A stretch of DNA of 42,024 bases from Lachnospiraceae bacterium (GTDB taxonomy: Bacteria; Bacillota; Clostridia; Lachnospirales; Lachnospiraceae). The notes under the pieces are model-generated. The model worked only from the letters and a program-made list of their open reading frames with translations, did not search any database and was not told the DNA's origin. Shown here piece by piece: positions 25,214 through 33,065 of the stretch. Positions within the stretch are counted from its first letter, which is position 1, and each line of letters starts with the position of its first letter. The stretch spans positions 1 through 42,024 of the forward strand of contig JAGBCB010000022.1 in assembly GCA_017938145.1 (NCBI GenBank). The letters run 5' to 3'. The translations under genes and the position numbers were made by a program.

Positions 25214-25262
25214 GATGAATATCCTCCGTTTCTTCCTATCTGCAATATTTTTTATTAACCAT

Positions 25263-25289
25263 AGAAAATGGCGGGAAATTCTTCCCGCC
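25263..25289 (-). terminator. terminator after the DUF4160-DUF2442 pair
   Basis: GGCGGGAA (25270-25277) pairs with TTCCCGCC (25282-25289); the minus-strand tail is ATTTTCTAT. It lies about 50 nt after the DUF2442 stop codon. Confidence 0.7.
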
Positions 25290-25340
25290 CAAGATGCTAC
25301 ATACTTTATATTGGCTGAATAGCTCCGAAACCGCTAAGTT

Positions 25341-25640
25341 TTATACACTATCCAAATACAACGCATCCTTGCATAAATCAATACGATTGTTCCAATGTAC
25401 GGAACTATCCTTTGTTTCATCAATATCCCATGCCACATTTCCAAACTCATCCAAAAAAACCTTTTGAAACTTTACCGGATTCTGTAACACCGAAAAAACA
25501 CCCTGTAACTTATTCTGCATACTATAACATTTGATTTCTCCATTATCAAAGGTGAGCTGCAATACATAATTCTCTAACGGCTCAACTGCAATAATTTTTC
25601 TAGGATTATCAAAATATTCTCTTACTCTTGGTTCGATCAT
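25341..25640 (-). CDS. DUF2442 domain protein
   Basis: A small protein of 99 residues (102 if an in-frame GTG at 25649 is used). The DUF2442 pattern is visible: VREYFDNPRKIIAVEPLENY, LTFDNGEIKCYSM, LDEFGNVAWD and a short C-terminal helix. Family members usually sit next to a DUF4160 gene, as here (the genes abut), and are sometimes proposed as one half of a toxin-antitoxin-like module; nothing in the sequence proves this. The TAGGTG box overlapping the upstream stop codon favours ATG at 25640. Confidence 0.8.
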   Translation of the reverse strand: MIEPRVREYFDNPRKIIAVEPLENYVLQLTFDNGEIKCYSMQNKLQGVFSVLQNPVKFQKVFLDEFGNVAWDIDETKDSSVHWNNRIDLCKDALYLDSV

Positions 25641-25649
25641 GCTTTTCAC

Positions 25650-25910
25650 CTACCTTAAAGGCTCAATCGTAAATAATTCCTGTCTTTGTCTGGCAAGATA
25701 CCAGTTCTCCTGTAATTCTTCCTGATGCATTGCCGTCCATCCCAACAGCATCTTCAACTGCTTGTTCGGCATATCTCCGGTAATTTTCTCTATTTCATTA
25801 ATATCAATGCAACACTCATACTCTCCATAGTACGCATGAAAATGTGGCGGCATATGGTCGTTATAATTAATTGTAATCTTTATTCCCCGAAACATACAAA
25901 TAATTGGCAT
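25650..25910 (-). CDS. DUF4160 domain protein
   Basis: An 86-residue DUF4160 protein. The family motif is clear: MPIICMFRGIKITINYNDH then PPHFHAYYGE, with the DHxPPHFHA core conserved, followed by DINEIEKITGDMPNKQLK and a C-terminal alpha helix. Histidines in this motif suggest metal or nucleic-acid chemistry but the function is unknown. A GGAGGAGG box is 7 nt from ATG at 25910 and too close to the ATG two codons upstream, which decides the start. The gene has its own promoter (25982-26011) and abuts the DUF2442 gene. Confidence 0.85.
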   Translation of the reverse strand: MPIICMFRGIKITINYNDHMPPHFHAYYGEYECCIDINEIEKITGDMPNKQLKMLLGWTAMHQEELQENWYLARQRQELFTIEPLR

Positions 25911-25981
25911 AAGCATTCCTCCTCCGTCTCATTTTGTAAAAAGCTTAGATTCGCTATATTTTTCTCTGTGCTCCTAACACA

Positions 25982-26011
25982 AGTATACCACAAAAAGCAT
26001 AATTCTAGCAA
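25982..26011 (-). promoter_or_regulatory. promoter of the DUF4160-DUF2442 pair
   Basis: TTGCTA (26006-26011) and TATACT (25982-25987) with an 18-nt spacer on the minus strand, about 70 nt before the DUF4160 start. Confidence 0.6.
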
Positions 26012-26029
26012 CATGTTTGTACTGATACT

Positions 26030-26287
26030 TCACACATAATCACACACTATTTTATATGCCTCATTTAAAAATTCCTCTATGTTCTTACGACACTTATAGC
26101 ATTTCTTGACTTTATCCATAATACTTTCGGAATCATTCGGCTTCGGCACATAAAACTGCGGATATGCTTTATTTTCATAGAAAGGTCTTGTATTGTTTTT
26201 TCTCTTATCGTCGCTCAGATAATTAGTTATGAACTTCACATTTTCTTCCGGATTAATTGGAAGAATTACTAATTTGGGTAAAAACAT
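26030..26287 (-). CDS. small hypothetical protein
   Basis: An 85-residue protein that I do not recognise. It starts MFLPKLVILPINPEENVKFITNYLS, split here as a beta strand and a helix, is rich in Lys and Asn, and has a CYKCRKNIEEF segment near residue 63. No signal peptide or membrane helix is visible. An AAAGGAAA box 7 nt before the ATG supports translation. It begins 23 nt after the stop codon of the hflX remnant at 26311-26374, so in the source genome it may have been the gene downstream of hflX. AT content is higher than in the housekeeping genes of the window. Confidence 0.55.
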   Translation of the reverse strand: MFLPKLVILPINPEENVKFITNYLSDDKRKNNTRPFYENKAYPQFYVPKPNDSESIMDKVKKCYKCRKNIEEFLNEAYKIVCDYV

Positions 26288-26310
26288 AGTTTTTCCTTTC
26301 TAAATGTTCC

Positions 26311-26374
26311 TTATCCTTTAAACAACTGCAGATAAATCTCCTTCGGCACATACGCCTTTACATACATGCCCTCT
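26311..26374 (-). pseudogene. 3'-terminal remnant of hflX
   Basis: Bases 26315-26374 match the end of the true hflX (31792-31851) at 55 of 60 positions. Read in frame it encodes EGMYVKAYVPKEIYLQLFKG and then TAA, against EGTYVKAYVPKEIYLQLFKGN in hflX. Three of the five differences are synonymous and two change one codon (Thr to Met), so it looks like the end of a slightly diverged hflX and not a fresh copy. Similarity stops abruptly at 26374/26375. No other part of hflX is present here. Confidence 0.85.
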
Positions 26375-26400
26375 CTAGAATTCTTTCTTCTGAATTCCCC

Positions 26401-27052
26401 TTAAGAAATCTTTTTCAAATCCCGTTTAGAATGAAAAATACGTTCCTCAGAATTAGAGAGTTTCCCATGTTCCATTTTCGTTTTCAATAGTTCTAATGTA
26501 CATATTAAATCCGCAACCTGAAATAAACGATATTCATTTGGAATAACCTTACGAACATCATAGTCCGCTAATTGTGTAGCTAAAACTGTATTCAGAATAC
26601 GGTTCAGCTCATGTTGTCCATTATCATAATATAAAATAACTTTTTCAAAGCTTTGGAAATATGACAAATTTTCTCTAATGAACTGAGATAATTCTCTGGC
26701 CATCCTTGCTTCTAATTTAAAGCTATTTTCATATTCTACCTTTTTGAACACAAAAGCTTTATACTTAATATCACAATTAAGCGTGAAATAATACAATTTA
26801 GAAAAAATCGCGCGTCGCTCATTCGGCTGAAAATACTGATATGGCGGTTCTCTACGAATCAGCGGTTCTGTATGTACTGCCTGCTCGTCACCATAACCAA
26901 TTTGCCTCAATGCATTATTTAAAATATTTATATTTTGGGAAATATCATTAGACTGGTCATGAAACACCATGGTAATAATATAATATGGTGCATGCTGCGC
27001 ATATTCTCCGAAATCTCCGGATTCATCGACAAAAAATACTAAGTTCTTTCAT
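26401..27052 (-). pseudogene. DUF3800 protein gene, broken by a +1 shift in a T6 run
   Basis: The longest open frame begins at 26970 (189 residues) and lacks an N-terminus. Upstream, an ideal AAGGAG box and ATG at 27052 encode MKELSIF, then a run of six T (27031-27036 on the plus strand as A6) shifts the frame into a stop. With one T fewer the protein continues VDESGDFGEYAQHAPYYIIT directly into the open frame. VDESGD is the N-terminal hallmark of DUF3800. The span is 652 nt, exactly 3 x 217 + 1. Further conserved parts are VILYYDNGQHELNRIL and FQVADLICTLEL. The break could be decay, a phase-variable or slippage site, or a sequencing error. It follows a structured RNA at 27064-27160. Confidence 0.85.
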
Positions 27053-27063
27053 TAAAACTCCTT

Positions 27064-27160
27064 AAAAAGAATGGCGGGGAGTCTCCCCGCCGAGTAGGTT
27101 GGACCTGGGTCTTTCGACCAGCCCAAAACTTTGCAATTTGCAATAGACATCTCTGTCTAC
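27064..27160 (-). ncRNA. compact structured RNA upstream of the DUF3800 gene
   Basis: From its own promoter the transcript would have three elements in about 97 nt. Hairpin 1 pairs TAGACA with TGTCTA (27144-27159). Two tandem TTGCAAA repeats follow. Hairpin 2 has a GGTC-GAAA-GACC tetraloop stem (27108-27119), extended by CT/AG and by TTGG/CCAA. Hairpin 3 is a perfect GGCGGGGA/TCCCCGCC stem (27073-27091) followed by ATTCTTTTT, an intrinsic terminator. The DUF3800 ribosome binding site begins right after the T-run, so the RNA is either a stand-alone small RNA or an attenuator leader. Several structured RNA motifs in the comparative-genomics literature are named for their position beside DUF3800 genes; I have not matched this one to any. 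Confidence 0.7.
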
Positions 27161-27164
27161 ATTT

Positions 27165-27193
27165 ATTATATCCATTTTTCATAATTTGTGCAA
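27165..27193 (-). promoter_or_regulatory. promoter of the structured RNA / DUF3800 locus
   Basis: TTGCAC (27188-27193) and a perfect TATAAT (27165-27170) with a 17-nt spacer on the minus strand. The predicted start (27158-27160) falls at the foot of hairpin 1. Confidence 0.8.
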
Positions 27194-27252
27194 TATATTT
27201 TTACAAATTTTAATCCAAAACCGTTGCCAGAATTATGCTTTACTTTTACACA

Positions 27253-29277
27253 TTATTGCTTTGCAATTACCCAATCTCGTTCTGCCACGCTTAAAACTAC
27301 AGTAGAGCCTACAAACCAAGCCATAAAAGCTGGTACAGTATTTGTTCCATAGAAGATTGGCGAATTGTCCGCAAGAAAACTTGCCGGTGTCAAATATGCC
27401 AACGAATCTGCCCCAAAGTAATAGGCAGCTGCCGGCAGCAGTAAAAACAAGCCACTAAACAGAAGCGTCTTTTCAAAGCTTTGGCATCTCTCCCCAATAA
27501 AAATACAAAGGTGAGCAGGAATCAATAAAGCAAGTAATTTAAACAAATATAGTATTGCCAGCACATCATTGACCGAGCCTGTAAAGCCTTTCGTCAAAGA
27601 TAAACTGCTGCAAGGCGCTACTGCCACCGTCTCACCCATGTAGTTGACGCTAAGCCTCCATTCCTCACACATCACACGGAGCCAGACAAGCACCACAACA
27701 GTTAATGCAACTGCATACTTCGTCCAAAACACCTTATTTCGTCCATTAGGGGTAGCGTGCAGAATTTTTCGTATATCTCCGTTCTGTTCGTAAGTAAACA
27801 GCACTGACAGACAAACAACCAAAAAGATATAGGATAATAGCGCATTTTGCCGTTGTGTTACACTGGATTTTAAACCATAACAATTCATAAACAGTGGCTC
27901 ATAAACCAGCCAGGCACCTTCTTCCAAATTTGTAATGGTTTCTTCCAACCGGCTCAATGCAACTTCATAGTTTGTGGTATCAATAAGTGAGGTTTTCAAA
28001 ACCTCCCGAGCGGTAACCAAATAGTCATAGGTATCCTGTGTAATAGGGCCTTGGATTTCTGTAACATATTGACGATAGATATTATCCTCACCTATGAGAT
28101 ACGCCGTAGTTCCGCAATTCAGATTTTGAGTCATCAAAAAGCCCAAAATCAAGAACAGACCACCGGCACTAAGGAACAGAAATTTGTATACTTCAAATCC
28201 ATATAAGCCCAAACGTCTCCGCAGTGCATCCCCTATTCGGTTCCACCAATTCAGCCACTTACCCATGATATCCCGGCTACCAAAGGGATATCGTCGGGAC
28301 AAAATCAGATGCGTCCCCACACTCAGCACTACAGTTACAAAGACCAGCAAACCAAACAGCAGTGTTCTGCGTCCAACAGGAAAACCTAAGAAATTTATAT
28401 TGGTATACCGGGTGTATAGTTCAAAAGTAAATACATATGAAAACACATTAATTTCCCGCAGAGGACTAAAAATAGATTGCACAGGAATAAGTGTATAAAG
28501 CAAATATTCTAATGCCAAACCCGCTACAGTTATCAGCCATCCCATCTGAGGATGCGCAAGAAAGCTCAATAAAAACCAAATCAGCAAACCCAGCAGAAAT
28601 CCGCAAAAAATCTTTACAAAGAAAAAGTGAATCAGAAACTCAGCAATGCTCATTTGAACGGTACATTTCCGAAACTCTGCCAAAGATTGGATTGGCCGAG
28701 ACCAATCCTGCCATCCACCATCTACGCACAACGATAGTCCCAATGGAAGATAATAAAGCAGTAAGGTCATTCCTATACAATAGGTCAAAAGAATTAACAA
28801 GCGGGAAATCTGTAATTTCCCGCGTCCCGCCGAACAGGTATGTACGATTGCAGCAAGCCCTTTCTTTCTCTCCTCCGTAAAGGACATCACCAACATAAGA
28901 ACCGCCGCAAGAAAAAACCAGTCTGCCAAGGAAAATGTCAACCAATCCTGTATTGCCTTATCATTGCCAAGCTGCACTCCCTCCGCAGTACAGCAGGAAA
29001 AATCCTCTGCGGTTTTTATAATATTTCGATACATAAAGGATTTTTTATTCGCATTAAAAATGCCGGATGCCTGCATATTGTATGCTTGCTTCTGTACCCG
29101 CTCCAAGTATTCCTCATAGCTTTGCAAATGCTCTATCTGAGTCACCAGACGCTGCTCTTCATCAGTCAAATTCCCATTACTCTTCTGATAAAAAAATACC
29201 GCAAGACACACAAGCGGAATACACAATATAATTATCAGTCGTTTCCGGTCTGAGGCAATTCGGTTCCACTCATTCAT
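27253..29277 (-). CDS. ABC-2-type transporter permease, large
   Basis: A 674-residue membrane protein with an N-terminal helix (KRLIIILCIPLVCLAVFFY), a long extracytoplasmic loop, a block of about five helices (residues about 115-310), another helix near 370 and a C-terminal set (about 480-670). It looks like two ABC-2 permease halves joined in one chain. A longer frame starts at 29310, but ATG at 29277 overlaps the ATPase gene by 8 nt (ATGAATGA), the normal coupling, and begins at the conserved MNEWNRIASDRKR. With the ATPase and lipoprotein genes it forms an export or sensing unit whose substrate is unknown; antimicrobial peptide resistance is a common role for such sets but is not shown here. 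Confidence 0.82.
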   Translation of the reverse strand: MNEWNRIASDRKRLIIILCIPLVCLAVFFYQKSNGNLTDEEQRLVTQIEHLQSYEEYLERVQKQAYNMQASGIFNANKKSFMYRNIIKTAEDFSCCTAEGVQLGNDKAIQDWLTFSLADWFFLAAVLMLVMSFTEERKKGLAAIVHTCSAGRGKLQISRLLILLTYCIGMTLLLYYLPLGLSLCVDGGWQDWSRPIQSLAEFRKCTVQMSIAEFLIHFFFVKIFCGFLLGLLIWFLLSFLAHPQMGWLITVAGLALEYLLYTLIPVQSIFSPLREINVFSYVFTFELYTRYTNINFLGFPVGRRTLLFGLLVFVTVVLSVGTHLILSRRYPFGSRDIMGKWLNWWNRIGDALRRRLGLYGFEVYKFLFLSAGGLFLILGFLMTQNLNCGTTAYLIGEDNIYRQYVTEIQGPITQDTYDYLVTAREVLKTSLIDTTNYEVALSRLEETITNLEEGAWLVYEPLFMNCYGLKSSVTQRQNALLSYIFLVVCLSVLFTYEQNGDIRKILHATPNGRNKVFWTKYAVALTVVVLVWLRVMCEEWRLSVNYMGETVAVAPCSSLSLTKGFTGSVNDVLAILYLFKLLALLIPAHLCIFIGERCQSFEKTLLFSGLFLLLPAAAYYFGADSLAYLTPASFLADNSPIFYGTNTVPAFMAWFVGSTVVLSVAERDWVIAKQ

Positions 29278-30019
29278 AACTGTCATCTCCCAAATAGTAA
29301 AGGTACACATCCTCCAGACTTAACGAATGAATTACCGGGGTCCAGTCAGGAGGAAGAGATGAAATCAGTTCCTCCGTGGTGCCGGAGCGAAGCAGTTTCC
29401 CCTGCCGCAGAAGCAATATACTATCTGCAATAGCCTCAATATCACTAACAATATGCGTAGCCAACAGTACAATCCGGTCTTTGGAAAGCTGGTATATATG
29501 GTCACGTAGCCTTGCACGCTCTTTCGGGTCAAGACCTGCAGTCGGCTCATCTAAAATCAACACCTTAGGGTCACCCAGCAAAGCCTGTGCCAGCAGAACC
29601 CGTTGTTTCATGCCGCCGGAAAAGCTTCCAATCTTCTTATGTCGTACATCCGCCAGATTTGTCATTTCCAACACCCGGTCAATTTCTTTTTTCACAGCTT
29701 TTCTTGGAATTTCTTTCAATCGTGCCATATAAACAAGAAAGCTCTCGGCTGTCATTCCTTCATAAAACCCTTGTTGTTGGGTCATATAACCAAGAATTCT
29801 GCGATAGCTCGTGCCCATTTCCTTAATATCCTCGCCGTCAAAGGTAATCGAACCGCCATCTCTTTTTAGATTATCTGTAATTAGATTCATCATGGTACTC
29901 TTTCCGGCGCCATTAGCACCGAGAATACCGTAAATTCCCGGGCAAAAAGAAAAAGAAAATTTATCCAGTGCCACCTGTTCGCCATATTTCTTTGTGACTT
30001 CGCTTAATTTCAGTTCCAT
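29270..30019 (-). CDS. ABC transporter ATP-binding protein
   Basis: A 249-residue ATPase subunit. Walker A is GANGAGKST (35-43), Q-loop region GYMTQQQGFYEGMTAESFL, signature FSGGMKQR, Walker B VLILDEPTAGLDPKER, and the switch histidine in LLATHIVSD. The C-terminal tail is short. Sequence and pairing fit the ABC-2 (antibiotic or sodium export-like) class. Its start overlaps the end of the lipoprotein gene by 10 nt, and its stop overlaps the permease start by 8 nt, so all three are translationally coupled. Confidence 0.95.
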   Translation of the reverse strand: MELKLSEVTKKYGEQVALDKFSFSFCPGIYGILGANGAGKSTMMNLITDNLKRDGGSITFDGEDIKEMGTSYRRILGYMTQQQGFYEGMTAESFLVYMARLKEIPRKAVKKEIDRVLEMTNLADVRHKKIGSFSGGMKQRVLLAQALLGDPKVLILDEPTAGLDPKERARLRDHIYQLSKDRIVLLATHIVSDIEAIADSILLLRQGKLLRSGTTEELISSLPPDWTPVIHSLSLEDVYLYYLGDDSYE

Positions 30020-31227
30020 GGAAGCTTCCTTTCTTCTTCATTGCCCCAAAGTAGTGTTGCTTTCATATTATCCTTCAAATCCAACAGTACAGTATAATCC
30101 GCTGACCTCATTTCACCATGGTACATGAGGTCGATAATCAGCTTTTCTTCATCCCCGCCCAAAAGCGAATAACTGCAACTATTTGGGTCTATATCCAAGC
30201 CGGATATAACATCCGGGTACAACTTCCCACTATAAATAAGGGTTCCGGAAAAATCACGAATCTCCACCCATCTGATATTTTCTCTACGAGAAATATTCAC
30301 TACAACTCCATCCGTTACATCCGGTATATCCGACCCTGAACTTCCGTCGGCAGGCCAGGAGGCAATTTCTACTTTTTCGTTATTTTCCAGTTTCCAAAGA
30401 TATGCTTTATTATCCTTCCATCCCGGCAAATATATTTCATGGTTTTCTGTCACCCAAATTTTTCCCGGATTTTCAGCCATATCAAGCTCCTGATATATCA
30501 CTTCCGATGTGCCATTTTCTATATCAAATCTCGTAATCGTTATATCCCGGGAATCCAAATTCTCATAAGTAACCAGAGAAAGATAGACATATCCTCCTAC
30601 AAACCGATAGGTATCTGACACACCGCTGGGAACATTTTCATCATGCAAGACAGTAAACTCCCCGTCACCGGACAAGTCGGCAGATAAAAGTGACACACGA
30701 AAAACGGTTTGCATACCATCCACCGCACTGGCCCTACCCAACAGGAACAATTTACCTTGGTGGACTATATACTTTTGGGGCTGATAAACCATTATTATAT
30801 CTTCATAACTGATTGGCATAATATTTTCTCTGTTCATGCCGGTCAAGTCACTTTTACAAAGATATCTTTCCCTCAATGTTGTACCACTCGTAATCCGGTA
30901 AAGGTTTCCATCGTAAAAAGAAAGAGAGGCAAAATGCTTTATGTATGCCCCACACTCGCTACTATTATGCATGCAGGAAGGGTCTGCACAAAGTACGCCG
31001 CTGATTCCGCTGGCCTTGTCATAATATTGAAGATAATCCTCGCAAAATACTGTGCCGCAAAAGAATTCTTCCGTTTCCAAAAAGTTGACACCATCTGACA
31101 AAAGATATTTATTTTGCGCATTGTTTTCTGCCGGAAACTTACCGGAATCATCCAACGCATCCTTTTGACACCCTGACAGTAACAAAATCGCAATTACTAT
31201 ACCTACACCCAGGAAACCTCTTTTCAT
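30010..31227 (-). CDS. lipoprotein with beta-propeller-like repeats and a Cys/His motif
   Basis: A 405-residue lipoprotein. The signal peptide ends in the lipobox LLLSGC with the lipidated Cys at residue 20. A LCADPSCMHNSSECGAY motif (about residues 78-94) has three Cys and one His in a pattern seen in other Firmicute lipoproteins next to ABC transporters, possibly metal-binding or disulfide-bonded. The rest has repeated strand segments such as YLVHQGKLFLLG-like and VTENHEIYLPGW, suggesting a propeller fold. A longer frame reaches 31248, but ATG at 31227 has AGGAGG 6 nt upstream and begins the signal peptide. It lies between the XRE regulator and the ABC genes and is probably a surface sensor or binding partner. 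Confidence 0.82.
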   Translation of the reverse strand: MKRGFLGVGIVIAILLLSGCQKDALDDSGKFPAENNAQNKYLLSDGVNFLETEEFFCGTVFCEDYLQYYDKASGISGVLCADPSCMHNSSECGAYIKHFASLSFYDGNLYRITSGTTLRERYLCKSDLTGMNRENIMPISYEDIIMVYQPQKYIVHQGKLFLLGRASAVDGMQTVFRVSLLSADLSGDGEFTVLHDENVPSGVSDTYRFVGGYVYLSLVTYENLDSRDITITRFDIENGTSEVIYQELDMAENPGKIWVTENHEIYLPGWKDNKAYLWKLENNEKVEIASWPADGSSGSDIPDVTDGVVVNISRRENIRWVEIRDFSGTLIYSGKLYPDVISGLDIDPNSCSYSLLGGDEEKLIIDLMYHGEMRSADYTVLLDLKDNMKATLLWGNEEERKLPWN

Positions 31228-31251
31228 AAAATTCCTCCTGCAATACAACGA

Positions 31252-31689
31252 TTACTCGAAGGAAAATATATCCGCTACACCATCATCTTCTTCGCTAGTC
31301 ATATTATCCATCGGTAAATTCGTAGTTTTCTCTCTATCATAATATTTTACAACACCAGACATGATTATTGCGACTAGTGCTAAGGAAACCAATACACAAG
31401 CGAATACAAACATGCTCTTGCTGTTTTTACTATGGTTATTTTGTTCCTTTAAAATCTCATCCGTTCTCTCCGCATTTTGAGAAACAGCCTCTGCTTTGCC
31501 ATTCAATATATCATCCACAGAAACACCATATAAAACACTTAAGGTCTTCAGATTTTCAGTGCTTGGAACCGCAGCGCCAACCTCCCACCTTGAAATTGCC
31601 TGACGGGATACATTTAATTTTTCTGCCAACTCCAATTGCGTCAATCCATGTTGCTTTCTAAGTAAAGCAAGTTTTGCTTCCATACCCAT
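31252..31689 (-). CDS. membrane-anchored XRE-family regulator
   Basis: A 145-residue protein with an N-terminal XRE helix-turn-helix (about 5-60: LRKQHGLTQLELAEKLNVSRQ and AISRWEVG), a charged linker, one membrane helix (about 92-113, MFVFACVLVSLALVAIIMSG) and a short acidic outer tail. This layout suits a repressor that senses an envelope signal. A longer frame starts at 31788, but ATG at 31689 has a GGAGG box 8 nt upstream and begins at the HTH. A perfect palindrome at 31719-31754 lies just upstream and is a likely self-operator. It is the first gene of the lipoprotein-ABC operon, which therefore appears autoregulated. Confidence 0.85.
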   Translation of the reverse strand: MGMEAKLALLRKQHGLTQLELAEKLNVSRQAISRWEVGAAVPSTENLKTLSVLYGVSVDDILNGKAEAVSQNAERTDEILKEQNNHSKNSKSMFVFACVLVSLALVAIIMSGVVKYYDREKTTNLPMDNMTSEEDDGVADIFSFE

Positions 31690-31718
31690 TTGCCTTTCCT
31701 CCATTTTTGAATAAAACA

Positions 31719-31754
31719 GCGTAAATGTAAACCACATACGGTTTACATTTACGC
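31719..31754. promoter_or_regulatory. perfect operator palindrome upstream of the XRE regulator
   Basis: Two 15-bp arms GCGTAAATGTAAACC (31719-31733) and GGTTTACATTTACGC (31740-31754) with a 6-bp spacer, perfectly symmetrical. It ends 30 bp before the regulator start and contains TTTACA, which could be part of the promoter. An intrinsic terminator is unlikely because no T-run follows on either strand. Confidence 0.8.
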
Positions 31755-31784
31755 AATCACTAATTGCTTTTTCTGTTTTTTTAA

Positions 31785-33065
31785 TCAATTGCCTTTAAAC
31801 AACTGCAAATATATCTCCTTCGGCACATACGCCTTTACATAAGTACCCTCTGCCTGATACTCCTCTTCCAGCAATTGCCCATACTTACGAATCACCTGAA
31901 TTTTAGCGGTTTCCGTATACGGGAACACATACTCTAAAAGCACCTTGCTCTCCCGCAGGATTCTTTCCAGAATTTCCAACAATTCACCGGTGCCCTCACC
32001 GAGTTTTGCCGCCATTTTTACGGTTTCGTCTGCCTTTAAGTCTTTGCGTACTTCCTCTTCGATTTCGCCGTTTGCAATCTTTTCCCGGTAAATATCCTGC
32101 TTGTTAAAAATGGTGATTACCTTTTTATCTTCCACGCCGAGATTTCGCAGAGTCTCATATACCACATGCATGTGTTTGTAACAGTCCGGGTTGGAAGCGT
32201 CCACCACATGCAAAATAATATCTGCATACTTTGCCTCCTCTAAGGTGGAACGGAAGGCATCAATTAAGTGATGCGGAAGCTTTCTTACAAATCCAACCGT
32301 ATCGGTAAGCAGAATCTGCTGACCACTTGGCAGGGTTAAGTTTCTGGTGGTTGGGTCCAGGGTTGCAAAGAGCTTGTCTTCTTCGATAACCCCGGCATTG
32401 GTTAAATAATTAAGCAGCGTGGACTTACCTGCGTTAGTATATCCCACAATGGAAACCACAGGAATCGGGTTCTTGCTGCGGGCAGCTCTTGCCACCTCGC
32501 GGGCCTTTACCACATCGTCCAATTCTCTTCCAAGCTGTGAAATGCGGTCACGGATTAAACGGCGGTCCATCTCCAGCTTCTTTTCACCGGGGCCGCGGGT
32601 TCCGATACCGCCGCCCAAACGAGACAGTACATTACCCATACCGATAAGGCGTGAAGAACGGTACTTTAACTGTGCCAACTCAACCTGAATCTTACCCTCT
32701 CTTGTGGAGGCGTGCTGAGCAAAAATATCTAAGATGACCATGGTACGGTCCATAATCTGACAACCCAGGGCATCCTCTAAATTTTTCATCTGGGCAGGGG
32801 AAAGCTCGTCATCACAAACAATACCGTCTGCATTAAGCTCCTGCACCAGAAGCAGTACTTCTTCAATTTTACCTTTACCAAGATAAGTCCCCGGATGAGG
32901 CTTTTCGCGGTTCTGGATTACCATAGCCACGGTTTCTGCTCCGGCAGTTTTTACCAGCTCCGCCAACTCCTCTAAGGATTCTTTTGTATCATCGTTTTCG
33001 GCAGTGGCAACACCCACTAAAATTAAGCGTTCTGCCACTTCCTCCATGTTATATAATTCAGCCAT
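31785..33065 (-). CDS. hflX: GTPase HflX
   Basis: A 426-residue HflX. The N-terminal HflX domain holds HPGTYLGKGKIEEV and CDDELSPAQMKNLE, followed by a coiled-coil linker with IGTRGPGEKKLE, then the G domain: G1 GYTNAGKST (208-216), G3 DTVGFVRKLPHHL, G4 NKQD. A C-terminal extension ends VPKEIYLQLFKGN. HflX splits stalled or heat-damaged 70S ribosomes. It lies 6 nt after the DUF1622 gene. Its last 60 nt recur as a remnant at 26315-26374, so its 3' end marks one side of a possible island. There is no clear terminator before the XRE operator. Confidence 0.96.
   Translation of the reverse strand: MAELYNMEEVAERLILVGVATAENDDTKESLEELAELVKTAGAETVAMVIQNREKPHPGTYLGKGKIEEVLLLVQELNADGIVCDDELSPAQMKNLEDALGCQIMDRTMVILDIFAQHASTREGKIQVELAQLKYRSSRLIGMGNVLSRLGGGIGTRGPGEKKLEMDRRLIRDRISQLGRELDDVVKAREVARAARSKNPIPVVSIVGYTNAGKSTLLNYLTNAGVIEEDKLFATLDPTTRNLTLPSGQQILLTDTVGFVRKLPHHLIDAFRSTLEEAKYADIILHVVDASNPDCYKHMHVVYETLRNLGVEDKKVITIFNKQDIYREKIANGEIEEEVRKDLKADETVKMAAKLGEGTGELLEILERILRESKVLLEYVFPYTETAKIQVIRKYGQLLEEEYQAEGTYVKAYVPKEIYLQLFKGN

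Follow-up and report, generated by a model that had tools for sequence, protein, structure and literature searches.

A DUF3800 protein and the small structured RNA encoded directly upstream of it appear, judging from their sequences, to travel together as a compact two-part unit. We tentatively interpret this unit as a co-inherited RNA-nuclease pair that would most likely follow type III toxin-antitoxin logic and spread as a compact cassette, a reading that leads the alternatives considered below while falling somewhat short of an even chance. The pair was encountered in the window, i.e., the whole 42,024-nucleotide stretch of DNA analyzed (contig JAGBCB010000022.1 of the Lachnospiraceae assembly GCA_017938145.1, a draft genome that is 78% complete and comprises 72 contigs). 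Taken by itself, this RNA adds one more copy to an already catalogued Rfam family and lies beside a known domain family; what can be added directly from the sequences is the anatomy and covariation of a fuller RNA structure, a near-obligate linkage of protein and RNA, frequent loss of the gene, cassette-like sharing and spread of the unit, and a predicted RNase-HII-like fold for the protein. Rfam holds several motifs named after DUF3800, for which we found no function, and the accessible parts of the literature on DUF3800 other than the 2017 source paper (reportedly Weinberg et al., 2017) yielded no stated function for the DUF3800-XI RNA.

On the minus strand of the window, positions 27160-27064 form a structure-prone, RNA-like stretch with a minimum free energy of -40.4 kcal/mol (z -4.89; none of 200 shuffled versions folds as stably), from which a small RNA of about 95-97 nt is predicted. 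The preliminary description had proposed a structured RNA of roughly 97 nt here and guessed that it was one of Rfam's DUF3800 motifs. Both proposals are borne out: RF02975 (DUF3800-XI RNA) matches at 27125-27076 on the minus strand with 65.9 bits, far over its gathering score of 37.8, the match spans model positions 1-48 of 48 and takes in the core hairpin and an arm of the terminator, and the adjacent gene is indeed a DUF3800 gene, albeit a broken one. Our own covariance model, R1, built from 49 rows of which the window RNA is itself one, scores that RNA at 72.4 bits (27066-27155). Neither a tRNA nor a further Rfam family above threshold was found in the window. All the structural elements described earlier are present on the minus strand: a 5' hairpin with a stem of 6 and a GAGA loop (27144-27159), a core hairpin with a GNRA-type loop (GAAA cap) and a 2-nt bulge (27100-27125), and an intrinsic terminator hairpin (27073-27091, recovered by sequence scan), whose U-rich tail runs to 27064 and which is directly followed by the ribosome-binding sequence AAGGAG and then an ATG at 27052-27050. 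The tandem TTGCAAA copies, also pointed out earlier, do exist in the window, but the relatives in the 49-row alignment do not conserve TTGCAAA, and we reject the tandem as a functional repeat.

Ahead of the RNA lies a promoter-like site (27165-27192, minus strand; 10/12 in a consensus scan), with a perfect TATAAT -10 box at 27170-27165 and a weak -35 box, TGCACA, at 27192-27187 that matches the consensus at 4 of 6 positions. To call this promoter near-ideal was an overstatement in view of its -35 box and of the 11 sites of equal quality in the scanned region, as against 9.0 (sd 3.4) in shuffles. The family-wide signal supports the window promoter better than the window scan alone: upstream of the RNA, a TTGACA/TATAAT site reaches at least 9/12 in 113 of 138 units versus 169 of 690 shuffled sequences, though part of this signal is built in, as the scan takes the best site per unit. 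Conservation stops about 20 nt to the left of the -35 box in the 85 units profiled.

Across 49 aligned units, pairing in the true register holds for 95.4% of the stem cells of core and terminator, compared with 36-62% in slid controls, and changes on both sides are seen in 13 of the 17 core and terminator pairs (0 of 500 shuffles as good), with 7 of 7 among the terminator pairs counted; these figures lean toward support, since we chose the structure ourselves and set aside 17 of 66 rows because of altered length or decay. The covariation expected of the stems is found in the core and the terminator, and for the 5' hairpin the same expectation holds in part. This hairpin scores at least 5 in 90 of 129 distinct units versus 14.6% of shuffled sequences, and its 78 different stem sequences indicate that the sequence varies while pairing is kept; the other 39 units fall below the cut, including that of the window, which scores 4 because its hairpin stands farther from the core, whereas in most relatives the hairpin is close against it. 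The RF02975 model, with its 48 positions, pairs the core hairpin only, and both the 5' hairpin and the paired terminator fall outside it. Each unit of the 49-row alignment has a single core, and among the loci searched with R1 only L192 has a second core beside a gene. This second core, together with a terminator (L192:3658-3747), starts right after the stop of a complete unit, and neither a separate promoter nor a separate 5' hairpin is visible for it. Separately, L061 (G001 C4) carries a pair of divergent family RNAs with about 900 bp between them, and a DUF3800 gene was found close to neither.

The DUF3800 gene of the window (26375-27052, minus strand) has a reading frame disrupted at two places, one close to the start and one close to the C-terminus, as judged from ORF frames and Pfam; the preliminary description had missed this. 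The frame opening at the ATG at 27052-27050 runs for 9 codons and then meets a stop, and the DUF3800 residues, beginning VDESGDFGEY, are read in a different frame at 27030-26401 on the minus strand. The latter frame matches Pfam PF12686 (DUF3800) with 31.2 bits against a cut-off of 21 (34.9 bits in the genome search) and ends early relative to intact relatives, the C-terminus being likewise disturbed when compared with them by eye. The stop that ends the unit is at 26377-26375, and hence the unit extends beyond position 26401, where the preliminary description had ended it. The broken frame may be real or an assembly error; because of it, probably only the RNA would still be made in the window. 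The genome has three RF02975 copies in total, none with an intact gene: at L066 (C24) just the C-terminal part of the gene remains, and at L067 the gene is reduced to short N- and C-terminal pieces. The gene-less unit at L066 adjoins an HTH gene, which matches the couple_hipB model with 34.7 bits, under its cut-off; in G001 and G002 the same HTH gene is followed, by eye, by a hipA-type gene, whose place the L066 unit may occupy. L067 adjoins a PEPCK gene, and the relative G002 has the same neighbors and no unit, with about 75 other bases where L067 sits, and thus not a clean empty site.

We searched 299 genomes of the same bacterial family (Lachnospiraceae) and found the RNA at 63 places in 44 of them. 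A protein profile, A1, made from 13 intact proteins and run on the same genomes finds 28 near-complete genes (those of the window and of G086 carry an in-frame stop), and the RNA lies just upstream of all 28: in 25 cases by RF02975, in two by eye (L088 and L095, confirmed by R1 at 60.6 and 30.3 bits, respectively) and in one inferred across a contig break (L079/L025). RNAs, on the other hand, often occur without the protein: 37 of the 63 places have no near-complete gene behind the RNA, three of these having less than 760 nt of contig left. Loss of the gene begins after the terminator at L010, L012, L021, L041 and L066, and lies inside the gene, with both gene ends kept, at L020, L039, L047 and L067; the remaining gene-poor places have a truncated gene or none detectable. 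Partial-gene loci found in the family by means of the protein keep the RNA in 11 of 13 cases (G037 and G244 being near contig ends), and lack it at G103 and G124.

The presence of the RNA beside related DUF3800 genes, which the preliminary description had put forward as a check, extends well beyond these near-complete genes. The set of 97 protein-found loci comprises 17 in viral contigs and, from genome contigs, the 80 best among at least 548. The 94 with long matches include a few duplicate sequences; the RNA precedes the gene in 93 of them, and this holds for protein identities as low as about 36%. Profile search accounts for 92 of the 93, with the RNA 12-87 nt from the gene, and a covariance model for L234 (23.1 bits); the match at L152 is weak (E 0.05) and clipped by the contig start. 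On present data the exception is L204, whose full-length gene is 100 nt from the contig end and is accompanied by a different hairpin (L204:1-101) lacking the XI core. Hosts among the matches listed are Parablautia, Acetatifactor, Lacrimispora, other Lachnospiraceae, Oscillospiraceae and Treponema. In a class sample of 391 genomes, which overlaps the family sample, the RNA occurs in 12 and a protein match in 14 genomes; the window's own genome aside, eight RNA places have no protein match, with G587:C13 showing a short N-terminal stretch by eye. At the gene loci of G518, G536 and G376 the RNA is under the Rfam cut, yet it scores 52.9, 41.4 and 33.3 bits with R1. The same model finds no RNA at four distant DUF3800 genes (G392, G644, G542 and G336) or at the C-terminal remnant in G540, its sole match among these RNA-less stretches being at chance level (L251, E 0.11).

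Over 92 units, the core and terminator track the protein with a Mantel r of 0.58, as against 0.31 for the promoter and 5' hairpin, and L021 is a chimera in which the promoter and 5' hairpin of one lineage are joined to the core and protein remnant of another; on account of these two observations a specific match between core and protein is favored. Mutual exclusion of like units within a genome was considered and rejected, the 24 co-resident RNA pairs being slightly more divergent than random (P 0.058). Selection on orphan RNAs was likewise rejected: the one orthologous orphan pair available differs at 3 of 57 sites versus 28 of 997 (2.8%) in the near flank, and since it evolves no slower than the flank it speaks against such selection.

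The DUF3800-XI protein is a stand-alone protein of about 225 aa. The structure model of an intact relative has an RNase H-type fold and resembles RNase HII, which leads the structure search, and the acidic residues D11, E12, D144 and D182 are invariant in 49 proteins. We regard an RNase-HII-like fold as likely. None of three proteins searched has a match in PADLOC or PHROGs, and the one searched in NCBIfam has none there.

Under our favored reading, the promoter would drive a three-hairpin RNA of about 95 nt that ends at the intrinsic terminator, and the DUF3800 gene would be reached only by read-through, such that the RNA should far exceed the protein. The RNA core would be the dedicated partner of the DUF3800 protein, the RNA would bind the putative nuclease and hold it in check, and the pair would maintain itself and spread as one cassette, be it selfish or protective. 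That the RNA is transcribed, binds the protein and neutralizes it, and that the protein is a nuclease and toxic, is what we infer from this arrangement. The promoter of the RNA, the terminator before the gene and the near absence of the protein without the RNA together argue that the protein needs its RNA. That this need is one for restraint is suggested by the frequent loss of the gene while the RNA stays, and by the five copies in which this loss begins after the terminator. The toxin-antitoxin idea raised in the preliminary description fits the anatomy as well as this asymmetry, and we retain it in a tentative form. The preference for restraint over a cofactor role is weak: part of the asymmetry is expected in the absence of selection, since broken copies are detected via the RNA and the gene offers more to damage, and the RNA of the one orthologous orphan pair is no better kept than its near flank.

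The strongest competitor, which we rate as rather unlikely, is that the RNA acts as a positive cofactor that activates, scaffolds or directs the nuclease in an effector complex, e.g., an anti-phage one. A near-obligate RNA is equally expected in that case, the co-variation of core and protein fits it as well, and so do the sporadic distribution (44 of 299 genomes) and the DUF3800 proteins reported at some Cas12a2/V-A2 and VI-F CRISPR loci (PMC10910872, PMC12669027). However, we noticed no guide-like segment in the RNA, the variable part of which is palindromic in 90 of 129 units; the database searches above, with three proteins in PADLOC and PHROGs and one in NCBIfam, were negative; and the neighbors of the unit are mixed, with defense-model matches scattered among them. 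A pure cofactor would moreover leave the many gene-less RNAs unexplained, unless these are simply decaying.

More improbable is a cis-acting leader, in which the RNA and its terminator only set read-through into the gene by attenuation or by autoregulation through the protein. The position of the terminator directly before the ribosome binding site and the RNA preceding 93 of 94 genes are what such a leader would show. However, no strong competing antiterminator fold was seen in the 52 units, out of 63, that were folded: forbidding the 3' arm of the terminator there costs a mean of 12.9 and a minimum of 7.0 kcal/mol, which leads us to reject an antiterminator switch. Many RNAs also keep the core with no gene behind it, and the core and terminator sequence tracks the protein. 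The attenuator suggested in the preliminary description is accordingly less favored than RNA-mediated restraint of the protein.

The cassette-like spread assumed in our favored reading is drawn from 77 pairs of complete units whose members resemble each other at 80-99% and are flanked by no less than 200 nt on either side. In 47 of these, the likeness runs from the promoter to roughly where the gene stops and no farther, the flanks being unrelated and the edges being accepted within 110 nt before the core on the left and within 70 nt past the stop on the right; the clearest case, L199/L205, is 97.6% identical over 870 bp with unrelated flanks, and among L148-L151 similarity breaks off on the left at a point that can be fixed to a few bases. 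L141-L147, L150 and L151 form a sublineage with an ORF of 50 aa behind the DUF3800 gene, inside which L148 and L149 diverge; this ORF has no match in NCBIfam, Pfam or PHROGs. The units sit among genes of diverse kinds. Of the 261 nearest ORFs 148 were considered, and once 20 had been removed, chiefly because the ORF was very short or the locus nearly duplicated another, the 128 neighbors left showed 109 Pfam families, with no common partner gene among them in the 25 of 109 families listed; their PADLOC matches are scattered over 62 models, 25 of which are listed. Carriage by phages or plasmids was rejected, with one weak match in each collection; IMG/VR contigs contributed 17 relatives, 3 of them partial.

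These patterns also bear on a still less probable alternative, namely that the unit is a transposable element moved by the DUF3800 protein, perhaps with RNA guidance, with the gene-deleted copies being non-autonomous. The 47 of 77 pairs sharing only promoter to about stop, the sharp left edge in L148-L151, the four gene deletions that retain both gene ends and the enrichment of units in convergent gene gaps (28 of 84 versus 30 of 318 neighboring gene pairs as background, by a rough ORF caller) would all be in keeping with transposition. Yet in 30 of the 77 pairs the likeness continues into one flank or both (21 of these pairs fall within the group of L141, the Parablautia intestinalis copy), the family units profiled have no conserved end sequence beyond the promoter, and co-resident RNAs, with one pair 2% apart and the others at least 12%, do not form an amplified family of a single deletion derivative. 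An OMEGA-type guide RNA is weakened by the same lack of a noticeable guide-like stretch and by the variable 5' part being a hairpin in 90 of 129 units.

Directly past the last stop of the unit in the window, a detail that was previously overlooked, lies a duplicate of about 60 bp of the 3' end of hflX (26314-26374, minus strand; 92% self-match to 31792-31851), the original gene being at 31785-33065 (NCBIfam TIGR03156, 470 bits). In the same-genus genomes G001, G002 and G003, hflX and a glycogen debranching-enzyme gene are direct neighbors, and therefore the approximately 6.5 kb between them in the window (25214-31785), absent in all three, are extra. This interval contains HTH and ABC-transporter genes, the DUF3800 unit, the hflX 3' duplicate and a DUF4160/DUF2442 pair; no recombinase was found among the proteins scanned in it, two of which, besides the DUF3800 fragment, have no Pfam match. 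Between the DUF2442 and glycogen debranching genes sits a probable remnant of a second DUF3800-XI-type RNA, consisting of the terminator hairpin only (25263-25331, minus strand; R1 18.5 bits, E 0.0016), which is probably a decayed second unit within the same interval. The adjacent DUF2442 and DUF4160 genes (25341-25916, minus strand) lie a short way downstream of the DUF3800 unit; a table in PMC8198452 gives this domain pair for dhiTA, a toxin-antitoxin system found in Dickeya dadantii.

Taken together, the near-obligate linkage, the likely fold, the extended structure and the spread tie one DUF3800 motif to its protein, and what was an annotation puzzle becomes a two-component question, i.e., that of the protein with versus without its RNA. 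If the pair acts as a toxin-antitoxin or defense unit, the other DUF3800 motifs would be candidates for the same kind of system. It is conceivable, though rather unlikely, that the pair represents a new class of RNA-controlled selfish cassette, in which an RNase-HII-like nuclease would be checked by a single-copy, three-hairpin RNA, as in a type III-like toxin-antitoxin assembled from unrelated parts, and which would move from promoter to stop, about 0.85 kb in all, between sites without relation to each other and across phyla.

Among known systems, the type III toxin-antitoxin systems (ToxIN, CptIN and TenpIN) share with the DUF3800-XI unit the apparent order of promoter, structured RNA, terminator and protein gene, and the protein of the unit is almost never found without the RNA. 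In ToxIN-type systems the antitoxin RNA is built of tandem repeats, whereas the DUF3800-XI unit has a single RNA core in place of a tandem array, and ToxN is PemK/MazF-like, whereas the DUF3800-XI protein is modeled as RNase-HII-like. Relative to RNase HII itself, the identity is about 10-20%, with a TM of about 0.4 and a modest Z, and the DUF3800-XI protein differs in having extra helices and an RNA partner. TPR-DUF3800 and DUF3800 accessory proteins are known from CRISPR Cas12a2/V-A2 and VI-F loci (PMC10910872, PMC12669027). Unlike these, the DUF3800-XI protein, of about 225 aa, stands alone and is accompanied by a small RNA of its own, and no Cas gene is seen among the neighbor families listed (25 of 109 Pfam families and 25 of 62 PADLOC models); what the two appear to have in common is a DUF3800 domain with an RNase H fold and, possibly, an RNA partner.
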